In this document: piece by piece, positions 29,389 through 38,407 of the stretch | Layout of the letters: every line of letters begins with the position of its first letter | Position numbering within the stretch: the first letter of the stretch is position 1 | NCBI GenBank assembly: GCA_002167435.2 | Contig: NHBR02000122.1 | Span: forward strand, 1 to 64,000 | DNA length: 64,000 bases | Reading direction: 5' to 3' | From: Allomuricauda sp. TMED12 | GTDB taxonomy: Bacteria > Bacteroidota > Bacteroidia > Flavobacteriales > Flavobacteriaceae | Notes under the pieces: model-generated | Told to the model about the DNA's origin: nothing | Seen by the model: the letters and a program-made list of their open reading frames with translations, nothing else | Database searches by the model: none | Made by a program: the position numbers and the translations under genes

Positions 29389-30519
29389 ATGAATTCTTCC
29401 AAACGTATTCTGGTTGCTCCATTAAATTGGGGGCTTGGGCATGCCACTAGGTGCATACCGATTATTCGTGAATTATTGCATCAAGGGCATCGGCCGTTTA
29501 TTGCTTCAGATGGGGTGGCCCTAACTCTGCTCAAAAAAGAATTTCCCGATTTGCCGGCTTTTGAACTGCCCTCCTACAAAATATCATATGCGGAAAAGGG
29601 CAAGAATTTTAAAATCAAAATGATTTGGGATTCACCCAAGGTACTCAAAGCCATTGCCAAGGAAAAGAAAGCAGTGAAGCGTCTGGTAAAAGAGCATGAT
29701 TTAGAGGGGATTATTTCGGATAACCGATTGGGTGCTTATTACAAAAAAGTCCCTTGTGTATTCATCACCCACCAACTCAATGTGCTCTCTGGAAATACAA
29801 CTTGGATGAGCTCCAAAGCCCATCAAAAGATCATAAAAAAGTTTGATGCTTGCTGGGTTCCGGATGTAAAGGAAAAACCGAATTTAACGGGAAAGTTGGG
29901 CCATCTAAAAAAATCCAAGTTGTACATTGCGTATTTGGGACCTTTGAGCCGATTTGAGAAAAAAGAGGCTCCAATAATCAATGATTTGATGGTGTTGCTC
30001 TCCGGTCCTGAACCGCAACGGACAATGCTGGAAGAAAAACTGCTGGAAGAACTTCATGAGTTCGAAGGCAACATCCTTTTTGTTAAGGGGAAGATTGAAG
30101 AAGACCAGGTACGGGAAGAAATCGAAATACCCCATGGTAAAATTCTACACTATAATTTCATGAAATCCGATGAACTAGAGCAAGCTTTGAACCAAAGTGA
30201 CAAAGTACTCTGCAGGTCGGGGTACACCACCGTAATGGATCTCGCGAAGTTAGAAAAGAAGGCATTTTTCATACCTACTCCCGGTCAGTACGAACAAGAA
30301 TATTTAGCCAAACGGATGCAAAAGCAAGGTCTTGTTCCATATAGCAATCAGGAAGACTTCAAATTAAACTATTTATCCAGAATAGATGAGTTTGACGGCT
30401 TAACTCAATTTGAATCGGTTGTGGATTTTTCTTCGTTATTCGAAGTTTTCTCCGTGGCAGAAGCTTTTTCTAAAGTAAAGGAGAACTCGGAACCTACATC
30501 CACTTCACTCTCTACGTAG
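29389..30519 (+). CDS. Glycosyltransferase of the MurG/GT28-like fold
   Basis: 376 residues. The N-terminus ILVAPLNWGLGHATRCIPII has the glycine-rich donor-side loop of GT-B enzymes. DKVLCRSGYTTVMDLAKLEKKAFFIPTPGQYEQEYLA is the C-terminal nucleotide-sugar site, described here by its Gly-Thr and PTPGQ-EQ residues. Probably adds a sugar to a lipid or glycan in the cytoplasm. Its last 115 bases overlap the convergent histidine kinase gene, which is unusual. Confidence 0.82.
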   Translation: MNSSKRILVAPLNWGLGHATRCIPIIRELLHQGHRPFIASDGVALTLLKKEFPDLPAFELPSYKISYAEKGKNFKIKMIWDSPKVLKAIAKEKKAVKRLVKEHDLEGIISDNRLGAYYKKVPCVFITHQLNVLSGNTTWMSSKAHQKIIKKFDACWVPDVKEKPNLTGKLGHLKKSKLYIAYLGPLSRFEKKEAPIINDLMVLLSGPEPQRTMLEEKLLEELHEFEGNILFVKGKIEEDQVREEIEIPHGKILHYNFMKSDELEQALNQSDKVLCRSGYTTVMDLAKLEKKAFFIPTPGQYEQEYLAKRMQKQGLVPYSNQEDFKLNYLSRIDEFDGLTQFESVVDFSSLFEVFSVAEAFSKVKENSEPTSTSLST

Positions 30520-31499
30520 ATTTTTTCGCCATGTGCCTCCACAATGTGCTTCACAATGGAGAGCCCAAGACCTGAACCGCCTTCCGTTCGGCTACCACTT
30601 TGGTCTACACGGTAAAACCGTTCAAAAAGCCTCGGGATGTGCTGCTTTGGGATTCCGCCACCATTGTCAGTAACCCGCACAATCACTTTGTTTTTGATAA
30701 GATTCTCTACACTTACTTCGGTAGTTCCTTTAGGTAGGCCATACTTGATGGAATTGACCAATAAATTACTGATCACCTGTTGTATTTTATCCTTATCCGC
30801 ATTCACATAAATAGGTTCGGGATACTCCATATCAAAAGTGAGCGAAATTTCCTTTTTAGCAGCTTTCATCTCCAAAAGGTCAAATGTATTTTGAATCAAC
30901 TCAATGATATCAAAATCCTCTCGTTCCAACTTTAATTCACCAGCTTCAAGTTTGGTGATCAGGTCAAGGTCTTTTACAATATAAATTAAACGTTCCACCC
31001 CTTTGCTGGCACGTTGGAGGTATTTTTTTCGAAGCTTTTTATCCTTCATGGCCCCATCCAACAAAGTCAGAATATAACCCTGCACTGTAAAGAGTGGTGT
31101 TTTTAGTTCATGGGAAACATTGCCCAAAAAATCCTTTCTGTACTCTTCCCGAATTTTAAGGGTATCAATTTCTATTTTCTTTCCTTCGGCAAACTTTTCT
31201 ATTTCTTCTACCAAAGTCCTCATATCGGTGGTTACGGGTTTGGAAGAAAAGGATGATGATTCCAAAAGGGACACATCATCATAAATTCTTTTGATACGTC
31301 GGTAGATAAACCGTTCCACTCGTATTTGGATGATGACAAAACAAATGGCAAAACAAATGAGTGCAAAAAGTATGGTATGTGGCCAGTCTATATGTTCAAG
31401 GTCCATATGGAACCCCACGAACACGGCTGTGACCAAAAGCGTAATAACTAACGAAGACCTTAAGGCAAACTTGTATGATTTCCTTAACTTAATGGCCAT
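30405..31499 (-). CDS. PhoR-like sensor histidine kinase
   Basis: 364 residues. Two membrane helices (about 14-30 and 43-60) enclose only a very short outside loop, as in PhoR-type sensors that read a transporter state. The H box is SHELKTPL with H130; N box NLLVNSIKYG; G boxes DNGGGIP and GSGLGLSIVKH. The ATG overlaps the response-regulator stop by one base (TAATG). The C-terminal tail and last strand overlap the glycosyltransferase gene. Symbol withheld; PhoR assignment rests on layout and neighbours. Confidence 0.88.
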   Translation of the reverse strand: MAIKLRKSYKFALRSSLVITLLVTAVFVGFHMDLEHIDWPHTILFALICFAICFVIIQIRVERFIYRRIKRIYDDVSLLESSSFSSKPVTTDMRTLVEEIEKFAEGKKIEIDTLKIREEYRKDFLGNVSHELKTPLFTVQGYILTLLDGAMKDKKLRKKYLQRASKGVERLIYIVKDLDLITKLEAGELKLEREDFDIIELIQNTFDLLEMKAAKKEISLTFDMEYPEPIYVNADKDKIQQVISNLLVNSIKYGLPKGTTEVSVENLIKNKVIVRVTDNGGGIPKQHIPRLFERFYRVDQSGSRTEGGSGLGLSIVKHIVEAHGEKIYVESEVDVGSEFSFTLEKASATEKTSNNEEKSTTDSN

Positions 31500-32185
31500 T
31501 AGAGTACAAACTTATACCCCACGCCTTTTACGGTTTTAAAGTGGTGATCACCTATTTTCTCGCGCAATTTTCTAATATGAACATCTATGGTCCGGCCTCC
31601 AACAACTACTTCGTTGCCCCAAACTTTGTCCAAAATTACTTCGCGTTTAAACACTTTGTTGGGTTTTGAGGTCAATAGGGACAGTAATTCAAATTCTTTT
31701 CTGGGAAGTACCATTTCCTGCCCATCATTCACAATTTTGTATTCCTCCCTGTTAATGACTATCTCACCCACCTTAACTATATCTTCCACCTCTTTCTTGT
31801 CATCCTTCAACCTTCGCAACAAGGCTTTTACCTTGCTCACCAATACTTTGGGCTTTATAGGCTTGGTAATATAATCGTCCGCACCGGCATCAAATCCGGC
31901 CACTTGGGAATAATCTTCCCCACGGGCAGTTAAAAATGCAATAATGGTATTATCCAATCCAGGTGTATTCCGGATAACTTCGCATGCTTCAATACCATCC
32001 ATTTCCGGCATCATAACATCCATAATAATCAGGTGCGGGCTCTTCTTTTTGGCCTTGGCCACACCTTCCACACCGTTTTTGGCGGTAAAGACTTCATAAC
32101 CCTCAGAGGAAAGATTATAGCTTATAATTTCCAGAATATCAGGTTCATCGTCAACCAGTAGAATCTTAATGTCCTTGTTTTTCAT
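31499..32185 (-). CDS. OmpR/PhoB-family response regulator
   Basis: 228 residues. Receiver domain 1-120 with acidic pair D12-D13, phospho-acceptor D56 in IIMDVMMPE, and K108 in TKPIKP. The C-terminal winged helix (~130-228) has EFELLSLL and GGRTIDVHIRKLREKIG, as in PhoB. It is co-transcribed with the PhoR-like kinase. Tandem 11-base-spaced repeats in the adjacent divergent region match what a PhoB dimer would bind. Confidence 0.92.
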   Translation of the reverse strand: MKNKDIKILLVDDEPDILEIISYNLSSEGYEVFTAKNGVEGVAKAKKKSPHLIIMDVMMPEMDGIEACEVIRNTPGLDNTIIAFLTARGEDYSQVAGFDAGADDYITKPIKPKVLVSKVKALLRRLKDDKKEVEDIVKVGEIVINREEYKIVNDGQEMVLPRKEFELLSLLTSKPNKVFKREVILDKVWGNEVVVGGRTIDVHIRKLREKIGDHHFKTVKGVGYKFVL

Positions 32186-32238: not shown

Positions 32239-32343
32239 ATAAACACTTAACGTTCATTTAATCTAGTAACATTATTGTAACAGAACTGAAATAAACACTT
32301 AACATATAACTAACACCGCTTTTACACCTCCCCCGTTTCTTTG
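32239..32343 (+). promoter_or_regulatory. Candidate PHO-box region with 11-bp spaced direct repeats
   Basis: Three repeat pairs, each spaced exactly 11 bases: CTTAAC 32246 / TTTAAT 32257, AGTAAC 32265 / TGTAAC 32276, and CTTAAC 32298 / ACTAAC 32309. A 13-base string ATAAACACTTAAC is exactly duplicated at 32239 and 32291. A -7-like TTTCTTTG lies at 32336-32343, so the last pair covers the -33 region, where PhoB activates in other bacteria. Repeats are seen; binding by the adjacent PhoB-like regulator is inferred. Confidence 0.55.
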
Positions 32344-32371: not shown

Positions 32372-35197
32372 ATGAAAACATATTTAATATTGGCCTTTTC
32401 TTTTTTCACTTTAATGCTATCGGCACAGCAGAATGGTAGCGTTGTTGGAAAACTTACAGATAAGGAACTTAATGACGATCCGCTACCTTTTGCCAATGTC
32501 TTGATAAAAGGAACCACTATGGGTACTACTTCGGATTTTGATGGCCTTTTCCAGATTGCAGATGTTGAACCAGGAACCTACACTTTAGTATTTAGTTTCT
32601 TGGGATATGAAACTTTGGAAATCCCAAATGTTGTGGTCGAGGCCGGAAAAGTTACCGAAATAAATGCTGGTCTTGGGGCCAGTAGCGTGGGACTGGATGA
32701 AGTTGTAGTGACCACTACGGCAAGTAAAGACTCTGAGATTGCCTTATTGCTACAGCAAAAAAATGCTTTGGTAATGCAGGAGGCCATTAGTGCCGAGGCC
32801 CTTACCTTAAAAGGTATAGACGATGCCGCTGCTGCCGTAGCTCAAATTTCAGGTATTTCCAAACAACAAGGTTCCAGTAACGTTTATGTAAGAGGTTTGG
32901 GCGACCGTTACCAAAACACTACCATGAACGGATTGTCCCTACCATCCAACGATGTAAACAAAAAGAACATCAACCTAGATCTTTTTGGTTCCAGTATTAT
33001 TGAAAATGTAGCCGTTAGCAAAGCATATAGTCCAACTTTTTATGGGGATTTTGCCGCAGGTAACGTAAATGTGGATTCCAAGGAATACACGGGAGATGGA
33101 TACCTTGAAGTAGCTCTTGGCGGAGGAATCAACACCAACGCCGCTGGTGAAGAATTCTTGAAGAGCGAGGGAACCAGTGACTTTGGTTTTTACAACAGAT
33201 ATGATAACGACCCGTTTGCAGTTGTGCTATCCCACGGTGTAGATCCAGAATCCACTTGGGAGCCTATAAATGTTTCCGGTGCCATTGAGGGTGGGTATTC
33301 TTTCAATTTTAACGATGACAAATCAAGATTAAGCTTTTTTGGAGCGGCAAGTTTCTCCAATGGATTCGAAATCTGGGAAGGTCCTGCACGTGATTTCACC
33401 AATGTTTTGAAGATTGATTTTCCAAATGTTCGTGAGTACGCTTACAAAACAACTACAACCGCATTAGCAAATGTATCGTACAGAATCAACAGCGAAAACA
33501 AGATCAAGTTCAACTCCCTTTTTGTAAATAGTGCCGCCGACCGTGTTGGATACTACGGTGTAAATGGACAAGGCACCAATAGGGATGCCATATTGAATAC
33601 GGATGAAGGTTTCTATGTGATGAACGTTCAGTTCAATCAGGATATGATTTTTGTAAACCAGTTGACAGGTCAGCACATTTTTGATGAAAAATTGACTTTT
33701 GATTGGGGCGTAGGTTTCAACAAAGTCTTCTCTGATGAACCGGACAGAAAGCGTATCACTTTGGAGAACTACCAGTTCGCTCTGGATAACGACAATACAA
33801 CAAATCCAGTTTTCTACACAAACATTCCATTTGACAACCAAAGGTTTTTCCAAAGCATAGAAGACGATGAATTGAACAGCTTTATGAACCTTGGCTATCA
33901 AGCTTCGGAAAAAGTGAAATTCAACTTTGGATACAACGGAAGAAGAAAAGAACGTAGGTTCAACAGTATAAGGTATGGTTATGATATCCAAGACAGAGAT
34001 AACACACCTATTACAGATGTCAACAACTTTAATTCTATTTTCCATTATACCAACATCAACATTCCTGATGGGGAAGGATTGTGGAACACTTTGGTTTTGA
34101 ATCCAATTAGCAACGAAATCGGAAATACCAACAGACCTGGACTTCCTGAAAATACCTATAAAGGGAACTTGGATATCCATGCACTTTATGCAACTGCCGA
34201 ATTAGGTCTTACCGATAAATTGAGCATTGTTCCTGGTTTGCGCGTCGAATCATATAGTCAAAAAGTAGTTTATGACGTAATCAACATCAGTGCTACCGAT
34301 CCAGGGTTTAGGGAAGTTTATGAAAACATCTTCTTACCTAGTTTAAATGCCAAGTATTCCCTTACCGAAAACTCCAACCTTAGGGCGAGTTTCAGTAAAA
34401 CAGCATCTTTCCCTGAGTTCAAGGAAGCCGCCCCATTTGTTTACGAGTCCGTAACACAAAGAGTTGGTGGTAACCCAGACCTTTTGGGAGGTCTTGACGG
34501 AAATGGACCAACATATTCGGATATCTACAACTACGACCTTAAATATGAATGGTTCTTGGAAAGAGGTGAAATTATCTCTTTGGCCGCTTTTGCCAAAACC
34601 ATCAAAGACCCGGTTAACCGAGTGGTTGCAGCCGATGCAACGGGTACACAACGTTATTTTAGAACTGGGGAACAAGCCGATGTGTATGGAGTTGAGCTGG
34701 AATTGCGTAAAAATCTGCTTATGGATGCCGACGAAAATGCAATTCTATCTGCTGGACTTAATGCAGCCTATACCCATACAGAACAAGACTTAAGAGATAT
34801 TCCTGCAGGATCCGAAAACACCTTCGGAACTTCTTTCGATAGGGATTCAGATGAACTGGAAGGCGCATCACCATTTATTGTAAACGCCGACTTGAACTAT
34901 AGCCCGGTATTCGGAAACTATAGACCAAAAGCTACGGTAGCTTTCTCTTATTTCTCTGACCGAATCTTCTCCTTGGGAGCAGGTAGTTTGGGAAATATTG
35001 TAGAAAGGGCCGTACCTACATTAAATTTTGTGTGGCAGAATGCTATCGGAGAACACTTCGAAGCCAACCTTTCTGCAAAAAACATTTTAGATCCGGACAT
35101 CTCCTTGGTTAGGGAAGGAACCGGAATCGGAGATGTTATCATACGTGAGTATAACCTTGGGGTTAACGTTGGGCTAACCCTTAAATATAAATTTTAA
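32372..35197 (+). CDS. TonB-dependent outer-membrane receptor
   Basis: 941 residues. Signal peptide (MKTYLILAFSFFTLMLSAQQ), then a carboxypeptidase-regulatory-like domain (~24-105; FANVLIKGTTMGTTSDFDG), plug domain (~130-235; VYVRGLGDRYQNTTMNGLSLP) and a 22-strand-type barrel ending in LKYKF. Imports a ligand across the outer membrane using TonB energy. It is divergent from the PhoB/PhoR-like pair, with candidate PhoB sites in front, and 21 bases upstream of a surface lipoprotein gene. A phosphate-containing ligand is a reasonable guess, not shown. Confidence 0.93.
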   Translation: MKTYLILAFSFFTLMLSAQQNGSVVGKLTDKELNDDPLPFANVLIKGTTMGTTSDFDGLFQIADVEPGTYTLVFSFLGYETLEIPNVVVEAGKVTEINAGLGASSVGLDEVVVTTTASKDSEIALLLQQKNALVMQEAISAEALTLKGIDDAAAAVAQISGISKQQGSSNVYVRGLGDRYQNTTMNGLSLPSNDVNKKNINLDLFGSSIIENVAVSKAYSPTFYGDFAAGNVNVDSKEYTGDGYLEVALGGGINTNAAGEEFLKSEGTSDFGFYNRYDNDPFAVVLSHGVDPESTWEPINVSGAIEGGYSFNFNDDKSRLSFFGAASFSNGFEIWEGPARDFTNVLKIDFPNVREYAYKTTTTALANVSYRINSENKIKFNSLFVNSAADRVGYYGVNGQGTNRDAILNTDEGFYVMNVQFNQDMIFVNQLTGQHIFDEKLTFDWGVGFNKVFSDEPDRKRITLENYQFALDNDNTTNPVFYTNIPFDNQRFFQSIEDDELNSFMNLGYQASEKVKFNFGYNGRRKERRFNSIRYGYDIQDRDNTPITDVNNFNSIFHYTNINIPDGEGLWNTLVLNPISNEIGNTNRPGLPENTYKGNLDIHALYATAELGLTDKLSIVPGLRVESYSQKVVYDVINISATDPGFREVYENIFLPSLNAKYSLTENSNLRASFSKTASFPEFKEAAPFVYESVTQRVGGNPDLLGGLDGNGPTYSDIYNYDLKYEWFLERGEIISLAAFAKTIKDPVNRVVAADATGTQRYFRTGEQADVYGVELELRKNLLMDADENAILSAGLNAAYTHTEQDLRDIPAGSENTFGTSFDRDSDELEGASPFIVNADLNYSPVFGNYRPKATVAFSYFSDRIFSLGAGSLGNIVERAVPTLNFVWQNAIGEHFEANLSAKNILDPDISLVREGTGIGDVIIREYNLGVNVGLTLKYKF

Positions 35198-35218: not shown

Positions 35219-36418
35219 ATGAAAAACAAGTTTTTATTTTTAGGTATAGCCGCTGCACTATTCATTGCATGTGAAGCTGACGATACCTCTGATATTGTTA
35301 TCAACGATAGCAGTGTTACAAACAATACCACCAACAATACGACCGGAGGTGGCTCAGAGACCACTACTGTAAACCTTAGTGGTGTTTATACCACAGATTT
35401 GACTTTGAATCCGGACATTGAATACATTGTTACTGGTCCCGTTCTTATTGCAAGTGGAGCAACTTTTACGGTTCCTGCTGGTATGACTATTAAAGCTGAG
35501 CCCGTTGGTGTAAATGCTTACATTGCTATTCAACAAGGTGCGAAAATCGAAGCTAACGGTACTGCAGCCAATCCAATTGTATTTACTTCGAATGCTGCTG
35601 CTCCTAGTTCTGGTAACTGGGGAGGTATTGTTCTTTGTGGTAGGGCTCCTATCAACTCCACTGCAGATGGTTCTACCGATACTGCAACTACTGAGGTTGG
35701 TGGTCTTTCTTATGGTGGAAATGTTTCTGATGATGATTCTGGAAGCATTCAATATGTTCGTATCGAGTATGCAGGTGGTGCCATTGATGGTAACGCTGAG
35801 CTGAACAGCCTTTCCGTATACGCTGTAGGTACTGGTACCGTTATTGATTACGTTGAGGCCTATGAAGGCTCTGATGATGGCTTCGAATTCTTTGGTGGTA
35901 CTGTTGAAGCAAGCCACTTGGTTGTGGTAAACTCTGAAGATGATTCCATCGACTGGACTGAAGGCTTTATTGGTTCCATTACTGATGCTTATGTTCAGCA
36001 CGGTACTAGCCATGACAAAGCTTTCGAATGTGACGGTTACAACACAGACTTTAGCAACGTAGGTGGTTACTTCTCTGCACCTACCGTAACTAATGTTACT
36101 ATTGTTGGTGCAAACGATGGAACTAGCGAAGCTATAAGACTTAGAGCTGGTACTCAAGGTACTTTCAACAATATTGTTTTCAACGATTTCGACGAAGCAT
36201 TTGATTTGGATGGTGATGCAGGTGACAACCCAACGGGTCAAGGTGTATTGGACGACCTATTGAATGCTGTTGATGCAACCTTCAACAACGTTACCACTAA
36301 CATGAAAAACGATACTGGTTTTGTATTCGACGAAGCTGATTTCATTACAGGTGAAGGTAACGGTACAGGTACCGATATAGCTACTTGGGGAGCTGGTTGG
36401 ACCGTTGGTATAAACTAG
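35219..36418 (+). CDS. Repeat-rich surface lipoprotein, partner of the TonB receptor
   Basis: 399 residues. Lipoprotein signal with Cys18 (AALFIAC), then a Thr/Asn-rich linker, then a repetitive strand-rich body, probably a right-handed beta-helix (ATFTVPAGMTIKAEPVG, GNWGGIVLCGRAPIN, GFEFFGGTVEASHLVVVN, AFDLDGDAGDNPTG). No SusD helical fold. It directly follows the receptor gene and ends with a strong terminator, so the two form one unit. Likely an outer-leaflet binding partner or cap. I recall related proteins sitting beside TonB receptors in other Flavobacteria. Confidence 0.78.
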   Translation: MKNKFLFLGIAAALFIACEADDTSDIVINDSSVTNNTTNNTTGGGSETTTVNLSGVYTTDLTLNPDIEYIVTGPVLIASGATFTVPAGMTIKAEPVGVNAYIAIQQGAKIEANGTAANPIVFTSNAAAPSSGNWGGIVLCGRAPINSTADGSTDTATTEVGGLSYGGNVSDDDSGSIQYVRIEYAGGAIDGNAELNSLSVYAVGTGTVIDYVEAYEGSDDGFEFFGGTVEASHLVVVNSEDDSIDWTEGFIGSITDAYVQHGTSHDKAFECDGYNTDFSNVGGYFSAPTVTNVTIVGANDGTSEAIRLRAGTQGTFNNIVFNDFDEAFDLDGDAGDNPTGQGVLDDLLNAVDATFNNVTTNMKNDTGFVFDEADFITGEGNGTGTDIATWGAGWTVGIN

Positions 36419-36535: not shown

Positions 36536-36543
36536 TATATTTG
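36536..36543 (+). promoter_or_regulatory. Candidate -7 box for the first T9SS mini-protein
   Basis: TATATTTG is an exact TAnnTTTG match, 27 bases before ATG 36571 and after the upstream terminator, so the small gene has its own promoter. Confidence 0.5.
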
Positions 36544-36570: not shown

Positions 36571-36882
36571 ATGAAGCACTTTTACCTAGTCATTCTCTTA
36601 TTTGTTTGTTCTCTAGGATTTTCTCAGGAAAATGCCAAGAGCACATCAGATATTGACGGGTTTAAGCTGTATCCCAACCCAGTTACTCAAGGAAAAGTAT
36701 ATATCGAGACCACGCTAAATTCTCCCAAAAAAATTCTGGTTTTTGATGTTTTGGGCACAAAAGTACTTGAGACTACTATTTTAGGAAAGGAACTCAACCT
36801 TTCGGAATTGGACAAAGGCGTCTACATTCTAAGGGTTTTTGAGCAAAACAAAGTAGCTACTAGAAAGCTCATTGTGAAGTAG
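36571..36882 (+). CDS. T9SS sorting-domain mini-protein 1
   Basis: 103 residues only. Signal peptide MKHFYLVILLFVCSLGFSQ, a 10-residue spacer, then a complete type A T9SS C-terminal sorting domain: GFKLYPNPVTQGKVYI, ILVFDVLGTKVLET, LDKGVYILRVFEQNK, TRKLIVK. Normally this domain is a tail on large secreted enzymes; here there is no cargo. It is a close paralog of the next gene. Complete gene with own promoter, so not an obvious fragment. Role unknown. Confidence 0.85.
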   Translation: MKHFYLVILLFVCSLGFSQENAKSTSDIDGFKLYPNPVTQGKVYIETTLNSPKKILVFDVLGTKVLETTILGKELNLSELDKGVYILRVFEQNKVATRKLIVK

Positions 36883-37028
36883 TTCACTACTTTTTATTCC
36901 CCTCCCACAATCCTAAACAACAATTTTCAACGCTTTACCACCTGTTTTAGTGCTTTCACAACATAATATGGTCAACATTATACTGTTTACCTACTTTTAT
37001 ATTGCACATATACCCCAAATCTGCTTTT

Positions 37029-37352
37029 ATGAAGAAAATCTACTTTGTTTTACTTATGGCTTTACCATTACTTTCTTTCGGTCAAGACCTGGTCACAGTG
37101 AACAATGAGCCCGTTCAAGAGCTCAAGGGTTTTAAAATGTACCCTAACCCAGCTTATGGGAATGAAGTATATATTACTACAGAATCCAACGGAACCAAAG
37201 AAATTAAAGTTTATGATGTTTTTGGTGAAGTTGTACTGACCAAAAGAATTACAACCAATACTTTGGACATATCCAGATTGGTTCCAGGCGTTTATGTACT
37301 CCAAGTAACAGAACTTAAAAAAACCATGACCCGAAAGCTGGTCGTCAAATAA
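37029..37352 (+). CDS. T9SS sorting-domain mini-protein 2
   Basis: 107 residues from ATG 37029, which gives the signal peptide MKKIYFVLLMALPLLSFGQ. An earlier in-frame ATG at 37002 adds nine residues that do not fit a signal. The rest is again just a T9SS type A domain: GFKMYPNPAYGNEVYITT, IKVYDVFGEVVL, LVPGVYVLQVTE, TRKLVVK. Paralog of the gene at 36571 with 146 bases between. A terminator follows. Role unknown; perhaps a surface peptide or a secretion-machine component. Confidence 0.85.
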   Translation: MKKIYFVLLMALPLLSFGQDLVTVNNEPVQELKGFKMYPNPAYGNEVYITTESNGTKEIKVYDVFGEVVLTKRITTNTLDISRLVPGVYVLQVTELKKTMTRKLVVK

Positions 37353-37420: not shown

Positions 37421-38407
37421 ATGAAACAATTTGATACCCATCGGATTTTCAATATCAGCAATGCGGATGAATTTGATACTTTGGCATTGGACGTTTTCCG
37501 GTTTCAATATGAAAACAACAAGGTTTACCAACAATTTTGCGACCATCTAAAAAAGACTCCCCAAAATGTTTCCGATCATCTGCAAATCCCTTTTTTACCC
37601 ATTTCATTTTTTAAATCCTACAAGGTACTGTCAACCCAAAAGGAAGCAAGAACTATTTTCACCAGCAGTGGCACTACACAAAGCATTACCAGTAAACACT
37701 TTGTTCCAGACATAAAAATTTACGAAGAAAGTTTTTTGAAAGCCTTTAAAACTTTCTATGGTTCGCCAGAAGAGTTGTGCATTCTGGCCCTCTTACCATC
37801 TTATCTGGAAAGAGAAGGTTCATCGTTGATTTATATGGTGAATAATCTAATTGATAAATCTAAACACGCAAATAGCGGGTTTTATCTCCACAATCTTGAA
37901 GAACTTCATCAAAAACTTCAGGAACTCGATAGAAATCGCACAAAAACACTTTTGATAGGTGTGTCCTTTGCCCTACTGGATTTGGCCGAGCAATTTCCCA
38001 TGCATTTAAAAAATACCATTGTTATGGAAACTGGCGGTATGAAGGGCCGTCGTAAAGAGCTTATTCGAGAAGAGCTGCACCAAATCTTAAAAAAGGGATT
38101 GGGAGTGAATAAAATACATTCAGAATATGGAATGACGGAACTTTTGTCCCAAGGATATTCGAAAGGCGACGGGATTTTTAAAACTCCATCTTGGATGAAA
38201 ATAATCACACGTGATACCGAAGACCCTCTGACCATACAATCCAACGGAAAAACTGGGGGAATCAACGTTATTGATCTGGCCAACATCTATTCCTGCTCCT
38301 TTATCGCTACACAAGATTTAGGAAAAACCTATCCCAACGGAACTTTTGAAGTACTGGGTAGGTTTGATGATTCCGACATCAGAGGATGCAATTTAATGGT
38401 TCTTTAA
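37421..38407 (+). CDS. LuxE/PaaK-family acyl-protein synthetase-like enzyme
   Basis: 328 residues. The adenylate-forming motif FTSSGTTQS (~87) and HSEYGMTELLSQGYS (~228) match the ANL superfamily, in the short LuxE-like form that activates an acyl chain. No luciferase or fatty acid reductase genes are nearby, so it is not bioluminescence. It lies alone between two terminators/repeats. I recall this protein being common in Flavobacteria as 'acyl transferase'. Substrate unknown. Confidence 0.83.
   Translation: MKQFDTHRIFNISNADEFDTLALDVFRFQYENNKVYQQFCDHLKKTPQNVSDHLQIPFLPISFFKSYKVLSTQKEARTIFTSSGTTQSITSKHFVPDIKIYEESFLKAFKTFYGSPEELCILALLPSYLEREGSSLIYMVNNLIDKSKHANSGFYLHNLEELHQKLQELDRNRTKTLLIGVSFALLDLAEQFPMHLKNTIVMETGGMKGRRKELIREELHQILKKGLGVNKIHSEYGMTELLSQGYSKGDGIFKTPSWMKIITRDTEDPLTIQSNGKTGGINVIDLANIYSCSFIATQDLGKTYPNGTFEVLGRFDDSDIRGCNLMVL

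Follow-up and report, generated by a model that had tools for sequence, protein, structure and literature searches.

P1 and P2, two short open reading frames on the 64,000-nucleotide stretch of Allomuricauda sp. TMED12 DNA analyzed here (the whole of which is referred to as the window), belong to a long-established family of proteins that consist of a stand-alone T9SS type A sorting domain (CTD), and this family resides in the phoBR locus of the Flavobacteriaceae (as judged from the named relatives). As this is an old and well-kept family located beside a phosphate regulator, and not a collection of fragments, the tail domain probably has a job of its own. We consider it reasonably likely that the folded CTD is itself the functional product of a dedicated gene of the PHO locus. 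The CTD is usually treated as a disposable address label, and a widespread, conserved protein that consists of the label only suggests that the domain can be a product. These proteins (hereafter minis, defined as open reading frames of ≤180 amino acids counted from the first possible start) also constitute a natural cargo-free probe of CTD recognition by the T9SS, and their fixed place beside phoB and phoR points to a possible coupling of surface export to phosphate starvation.

Both genes are located on the forward strand. P1 (36571–36882; 103 amino acids, m1 type) and P2 (37029–37352; 107 amino acids, m2 type, with the start taken as the ATG and an in-frame TTG present at 37002) share 43% identity over their full length, and by sequence they are paralogues. 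Each contains a signal peptide, a spacer of approximately 11–16 residues, and a single complete T9SS type A sorting domain, which occupies 36667–36879 in P1 (from YPNP to RKLIVK) and 37137–37349 in P2 (matched stretch, 37137–37346). The PF18962 profile is covered from position 1 to 75 of 75 in both proteins (E = 1.2e-12 for P1 and 7.3e-14 for P2), as is TIGR04183 from position 1 to 72 of 72 (E = 4.7e-15 and 9.7e-15, respectively), and all of these matches are above cut-off. No domain besides PF18962 was found in a Pfam scan of the two proteins, the remaining NCBIfam matches are to the CTD ends of larger models or to another CTD type and all fall below their cut-offs, and neither scan detected a cargo domain between the signal peptide and the CTD. 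The initial annotation described two mini-proteins made only of a signal peptide and a T9SS sorting domain, with no cargo, and the coordinates, lengths, and full-length profile matches agree with that description. The signal peptide of P1 comprises residues 1–18 (36571–36624) and is followed by Gln, with the cleavage site assigned by eye using the Q-rule. All 25 of the m1 (P1-type) minis that were aligned have Gln immediately after the likely cleavage site, as expected under the Bacteroidetes Q-rule described in PMC5837995. The AF2 model of P1 (mean pLDDT of 86, with 94–97 in the CTD blocks) contains a signal-peptide helix at residues 3–14 and a seven-stranded sandwich in the CTD. The top structural match of this model is 8glk_D (E = 4.5e-5; TM-score by target of 0.84), in which the CTD of the substrate NucA is seen bound to the translocon of F. 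johnsoniae.

Within the genus, P1 and P2 are present at full length and in tandem in 35 of 36 genomes (the window's own genome counted), which excludes chance open reading frames. The locus of the one exception (G005) is probably just unassembled, since the neighboring LuxE-like gene is cut at the contig end. Across 30 genus loci, pN/pS values are 0.13 (P1) and 0.12 (P2) for the CTD, 0.19 and 0.24 for the signal peptide, and 0.40 and 0.19 for the spacer, which is the least conserved part of P1 and differs in length between genera. The constraint on the CTD was compared with that on the CTD of a single cargo protein, S8-protease-like by our reading of its sequence, that is present in 35 of 36 genus genomes. 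Eight of 30 cargo loci were dropped because the script found no YPNP frame, and removal of these and of unshared genomes left 20 genomes, in which CTD pN/pS is 0.130 and 0.114 for the minis versus 0.187 for the cargo, and mean CTD identity is 87–88% versus 76%. The mini tails are therefore more constrained than the tail of this one cargo.

These values also bear on whether the minis are ordinary T9SS cargo, wherein the passenger would be a short, pyroglutamate-started peptide that is released or displayed once the CTD has been cut off. The complete CTD with its conserved Lys, the invariant Gln that follows the signal peptide, and the fairly constrained spacer of P2 are all consistent with a peptide product. 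Against it stand the P1 spacer, poorly constrained and variable in length, and a CTD that is held more tightly than that of the one cargo tested. Furthermore, Fjoh_0547, a 112-amino acid CTD protein taken by its place and length to be the F. johnsoniae counterpart, is reported in culture supernatants in the absence of SprA or PorV (PMC7712824), a result with which leakage, vesicles, and secretion are all compatible. On balance, a peptide product appears improbable. The low conservation of the P1 spacer also weakens the earlier proposal of surface peptides, although less so for P2; the broader suggestion that such cargo-less genes could act as surface or regulatory proteins stands, and they may, as also proposed, compete with or regulate the T9SS.

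The gene order around P1 and P2 places both in the phoBR (PHO/PUSIV) locus. Upstream in the window are a glycosyltransferase gene (29389–30519, forward strand; PF04101), which is the counterpart of Fjoh_0541 based on domain match and gene order, and, on the reverse strand, genes for a PhoR-like histidine kinase (30405–31499) and a PhoB-like response regulator (31499–32185; TIGR02154, E = 5.9e-63, 212.2 bits with a cut-off of 296.2), both of which fall below the equivalog cut-offs. These are followed on the forward strand by a TonB-dependent receptor (32372–35197), the counterpart of Fjoh_0545 by domain match and gene order, and a lipoprotein (35219–36418) that has no Pfam or NCBIfam match and is the counterpart of Fjoh_0546 (FII) by gene order. 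Downstream of P2 is a LuxE-like acyl-protein synthetase gene (37421–38407, forward strand; PF04443, E = 1.7e-13), which served as a synteny anchor; across genomes, this gene usually adjoins TyrRS. The same order is seen in 40 loci from other genera, where a glycosyltransferase gene is followed by the kinase and regulator on the opposite strand, an optional receptor and lipoprotein, one or more minis, and the LuxE-like gene, usually with TyrRS, epimerase, and dihydroorotase genes further downstream. The LuxE-like gene directly follows a CTD gene in 39 of these 40 loci (the exception being L101), and some genes of the 40 loci fall beyond the stretch read. These loci, along with 10 further ones, were picked from listed short-frame matches, and they therefore show gene order and not frequency.

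Frequencies were obtained from a set anchored on the LuxE-like gene. Of 140 family genomes drawn evenly, 137 carry this gene. Three loci without a LuxE-like open reading frame were dropped (L219, L220, and L114, in which the stretch is cut), and the upstream stretch was read at 133 loci; 22 of these are shared with the 40 picks but are part of the evenly drawn 140. At 21 of the 133 loci no phoB, receptor, or CTD gene is in view, and these were not counted as absences (four were followed up). The 112 anchored syntenic loci hold one mini (26), two minis (19), a mini and a long CTD protein (14), one long CTD protein (30), two long ones (5), or no CTD gene (18), and 12 of the 18 loci lacking a CTD gene belong to genomes of 1.3–2.2 Mb. 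A mini is thus found in 59 of the 112 loci, 45 of which hold minis only, and in all 14 loci with both a mini and a long protein the mini is on the phoB side. The presence of minis could not be contrasted with that of the T9SS itself, as all but two of the 140 family genomes, including the small ones, have SprA_N (138 of 140).

Searches with the A1 profile across 148 genomes of the order (E up to 1e-12) identified intact short frames in the window's own family, with E-values down to 3e-42. In other families, a single 110-amino acid frame was found (G337, E = 2.4e-13; no phoBR genes within its 7.3 kb stretch), and the remaining matches are at least 225 amino acids long. Among the best-scoring 80 of at least 468 confirmed named loci, which are mostly from Flavobacterium, the mini is located beside phoBR or the receptor/lipoprotein pair in 79 (67 in which it follows the pair and 12 in which it adjoins phoBR), and one contig contains the mini and LuxE-like gene alone; the matched stretch is 112 codons in 55 of these 80. 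A contig titled 'MAG: Klebsiella pneumoniae' also bears a Flavobacteriaceae-type mini gene, and that bin is therefore mislabelled or contaminated.

It is phoBR, and not the LuxE-like gene, that the mini accompanies. Five loci in which the LuxE-like gene is elsewhere or missing were selected because they contain a short frame, and all five keep the mini in the phoBR locus; it adjoins phoB in four of them and is located behind the lipoprotein and receptor in the fifth (L334). Furthermore, m1 distances track PhoB distances (Mantel r = 0.72, 50 loci) more closely than they track those of the LuxE-like protein (r = 0.56, 59 loci), and the correlation between long slot CTD and PhoB distances is 0.35 (31 loci). 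In the 19 two-mini loci, the comparison with LuxE-like distances is not significant for either m2 (r = 0.29) or m1 (r = 0.11), and this test consequently does not support vertical descent of P2.

The position of the minis also suggests a possible partner. The mini could bind the low-phosphate TonB receptor and the FII lipoprotein at the outer membrane and, as a small additional subunit, assist these two in the capture of organic phosphate. The mini follows these two genes in the window and in the 67 named loci noted above, and low phosphate strongly induces the receptor and FII in F. johnsoniae (PMC8115612). However, 40 of the 59 mini-bearing anchored loci keep the mini with no receptor or lipoprotein gene between phoB and the LuxE-like gene (the pair possibly being elsewhere), and in the window a terminator lies between the lipoprotein gene and P1. 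A role as a receptor subunit is a minority possibility in our estimation. The receptor and lipoprotein genes occur in either order among the loci read (five were noted), with reversed direction in L095, while the mini stays put.

Phylogenetic analysis of the CTDs largely separates the minis from the long proteins that occupy the same slot. Trees were built with FastTree from approximately 75 columns and rooted at the midpoint, and their deep order is weak. In a tree of 141 CTDs, separate groups were recovered for 55 of 60 m1, 20 of 20 m2, and 46 of 54 long slot CTDs (SH-like support of 0.87, 0.90, and 0.78, respectively), and two long CTDs of a single locus (L210) fall beside the m2 minis. For a second tree, 30 generic CTD loci were taken from two Flavobacterium genomes, of which four had no frame and two were slot minis, so that 24 CTDs were added. 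In this tree, 74 of 80 minis and one generic CTD form one group (SH-like support of 0.94), and the long slot CTDs are not a single clade, the largest group having 31 members. The minis also carry a set of charged residues that is rare in the long slot CTDs: K53 is present in 79 of 80 minis versus 10 of 54 long slot CTDs, E91 in 69 of 80 versus 3 of 54 (and 2 of 31 generic CTDs), and R98 in 76 of 80 versus 2 of 54. K99, found in 77 of 80 minis, 52 of 54 long CTDs, and 26 of 31 generic CTDs, is taken from its place to be the Lys near the C-terminus that is almost invariant in type A CTDs (PMC10994853). Type A CTDs are described as having conserved motifs that specify the fold and a translocon-contacting surface that is poorly conserved (PMC10994853). 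Because conservation in these domains thus reflects the fold while the translocon surface varies, the mini-specific set K53, E91, and R98 hints at a candidate dedicated contact.

The long proteins found in the slot in many genera (for example at L090, L091, L097, L098, and L105) differ in make-up and have related tails. Among seven that were scanned, three contain a lamin-tail domain (one below cut-off), one contains DUF5689, and three have the CTD alone. From these sequences, the slot is a site of cargo exchange behind one class of CTD, and it can serve as an example of how cargo is gained and lost while the sorting domains stay related. The long proteins make it necessary to ask whether the minis are what is left of larger cargo genes or the recent beginnings of new ones. 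Long CTD proteins (249–795 amino acids) are the sole occupants of 35 of 94 occupied slots and share a further 14 with a mini, they are found in many genera, and the CTDs in the slot are related. Additionally, the reading frame of a single m1 copy from another genus is broken (L070:6589–6840, genome G090), with the start of the signal peptide located upstream in another frame, reflecting either decay or a sequencing error. As a general case, however, the remnant reading does not hold: both minis are of near-constant length and under purifying selection in the genus, their tails group together, and their signature is rare in long CTDs. The concern that the minis might prove to be the ends of larger genes in relatives is not borne out, as the minis stay minis, their tails cluster, and m1 tracks PhoB. 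A main role as seeds of new secreted proteins, as was initially suggested, is likewise unlikely because the minis have stayed mini across many genera. Taken as a whole, a remnant or seed origin is very improbable.

The regulatory sequences around P1 and P2 were also analyzed. A terminator scan of the window identified a strong intrinsic terminator in the interval between the lipoprotein gene and P1 (36439–36468, forward strand), a second one after P2 (37370–37393, forward strand), and none between P1 and P2. P1 is preceded by TATATTTG (36536–36543, forward strand), read as a Bacteroidetes-type -7 element on the basis of the pattern TAnnTTTG, which we take to be the Bacteroidetes promoter consensus. 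This pattern occurs 10–60 nucleotides before the start of 25 of 60 P1-type genes (shuffled expectation of 4.0) and before 3 of 20 P2-type genes (expectation of 0.7). A sigma-70 promoter scan was uninformative (one match versus 3.5 in shuffles). The early claim that the two genes have their own promoter signals and terminators therefore holds for the flanking terminators and for the putative P1 promoter, but not for the interval between the genes. The m2 genes have upstream motifs of a different kind, as TTCACAACA (36955–36963 in the window, forward strand) is conserved in 19 of 20 m2 upstream regions (shuffled expectation of 0.07) and CCCAAATC (37014–37021, forward strand), which begins 9–19 nucleotides (mostly 15) before the m2 starts, is present in 16 of 20 (expectation of 0.06). 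Together these motifs, at 36955–37021 in the window and in the 19 other regions, make up a candidate operator or leader element. In 9 of 20 m2 upstream regions, CCCAAATC forms part of the palindrome TTGATCCCAAATCAA, and ACCTACAA is present in 15 of 20, with a shuffled expectation of ≤0.12 in each case.

PhoB-family regulators use direct repeats with an 11-bp period. Two such repeats of the form TAAC-N7-TAAC are located in the interval between the phoB-like and TonB receptor genes of the window (32267–32281 and 32300–32314, forward strand) and are candidate PhoB-type sites; the repeat is absent before P1 or P2 in the window. Across the loci, it lies upstream of 28 of 40 phoB-adjacent minis (dinucleotide-shuffled expectation of 0.7), of the first gene in the receptor/lipoprotein pair in 14 of 23 cases (0.4), and of long genes adjacent to phoB in 15 of 33 cases (0.3). 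It was found before none of 19 minis located behind a receptor, 19 P2-type genes, 19 long genes in second place, and 58 glycosyltransferase genes, and before 1 of 133 LuxE-like genes. Repeats with periods of 9, 10, and 12 occur at most once per set, and a period of 13 is seen in 5 of 40 phoB-adjacent minis. As a genome-wide Pho box the pattern was rejected, since a close pattern gave 8 matches in the own genome versus 22 for the reversed control; by eye, the phoB/TonB receptor site is the only match there in a clear phosphate setting. Based on this distribution among the gene sets and the lack of genome-wide enrichment, the repeat is a site of the phoB intergenic region and is no proof that the minis are induced; it is perhaps PhoB's own candidate site. 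A further pattern, TTTAACA-N3-5-TTTGG, is located upstream of 21 of 40 phoB-adjacent minis and in none of seven other gene sets.

The favored reading, in which the folded CTD is the product, suggests the following mechanism. First, the minis would be exported by Sec, and the signal peptide would be cut before the Gln. The CTD would then fold in the periplasm as the finished product and not as a disposable tag. K53, E91, and R98 may make a dedicated contact with an envelope partner, through which the mini would serve the PHO program in the envelope. The first-choice partner would be the T9SS carrier or translocon (PorV/SprA), occupied or primed by the cargo-less CTD, although this assignment is tentative, and the report of Fjoh_0547 outside cells without SprA or PorV argues against it. 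A more specific version is less likely: starved cells would make cargo-less CTDs whose charged patch occupies the carrier or translocon and thereby tunes export or release. If true, a phosphate locus would encode, in the minis, the cell's own means of competing with or priming a secretion system. We rank the receptor and lipoprotein second among potential partners and PorA-like signaling third.

The third of these would have the exposed CTD report the state of the envelope or T9SS to PhoR/PhoB, and not to PorY/PorX, by analogy to P. gingivalis. PorA (PGN_0123) of that organism, a CTD protein of small size, acts on PorXY-SigP and is reported to arrive at the cell surface independently of the translocation machinery; its authors liken it to Fjoh_0547 (PMC7712824). 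In addition, the mini gene adjoins phoB in 40 of the 59 mini-bearing anchored loci. The PhoR-like kinase, however, has two likely membrane spans with approximately 11 residues between them (assigned by eye) and thus no obvious periplasmic sensor domain. The minis also lack the FimH-like domain, and PMC7712824 reports PorA homologues in Porphyromonas only. Signaling of this type appears unlikely, if somewhat less so than a peptide product.

Some elements of this system have been described before: the locus is known, and so are individual stand-alone CTD proteins, with Fjoh_0547 as one example and PorA as a partial one. The phoBR operon/PUSIV of F. johnsoniae comprises Fjoh_0541 (glycosyltransferase), Fjoh_0543 (PhoR), Fjoh_0544 (PhoB), Fjoh_0545 (TonB receptor), and Fjoh_0546 (FII), and among the tags listed low phosphate induces Fjoh_0541, 0544, 0545, 0546, and 0549, while induction of Fjoh_0542 and 0543 was not significant (PMC8115612). 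Fjoh_0547 is absent from the low-phosphate genes in Table 1 of that paper. Among the open-access papers covered by a locus-tag search, Fjoh_0547 is named in the main text of PMC7712824 only, in one sentence on its presence in supernatants. Neither the mini family, nor its phoBR link, nor a function for Fjoh_0547 was described in any paper that turned up in these open-access searches, which used the locus tags of the gene and its neighbors and also targeted CTD-only proteins. The stand-alone CTD family and its link to phoBR thus appear to be new.

By locus number, the gene order of the PUSIV/phoBR cluster is that of the window, with Fjoh_0542 (OprP) numbered between the glycosyltransferase and PhoR. 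Fjoh_0547 is numbered next after Fjoh_0546 and has the length of the minis. Each of five genomes near F. johnsoniae has one frame of ≤140 amino acids, the slot mini, among the TIGR04183 matches listed (to approximately E = 5e-9; complete to 1e-8 in two of the five). Where F. johnsoniae has Fjoh_0547, a pair of CTD genes or long CTD genes are present in the window and in other genera. PorA is similar to the minis in being a small CTD protein, and differs from them in its length of 246 amino acids, its regulation of T9SS genes, and its FimH-like N-terminal domain, for which a Pfam scan of the minis (PF18962 alone) found no counterpart and for which they have no room. Similar to type A cargo proteins (TIGR04183/PF18962) such as NucA and RemZ, the minis possess a signal peptide, the CTD sequence and fold, and the C-terminal Lys. 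Unlike those proteins, they carry no cargo domain, they share the K53/E91/R98 set, and their CTD is under constraint above that of one control cargo.
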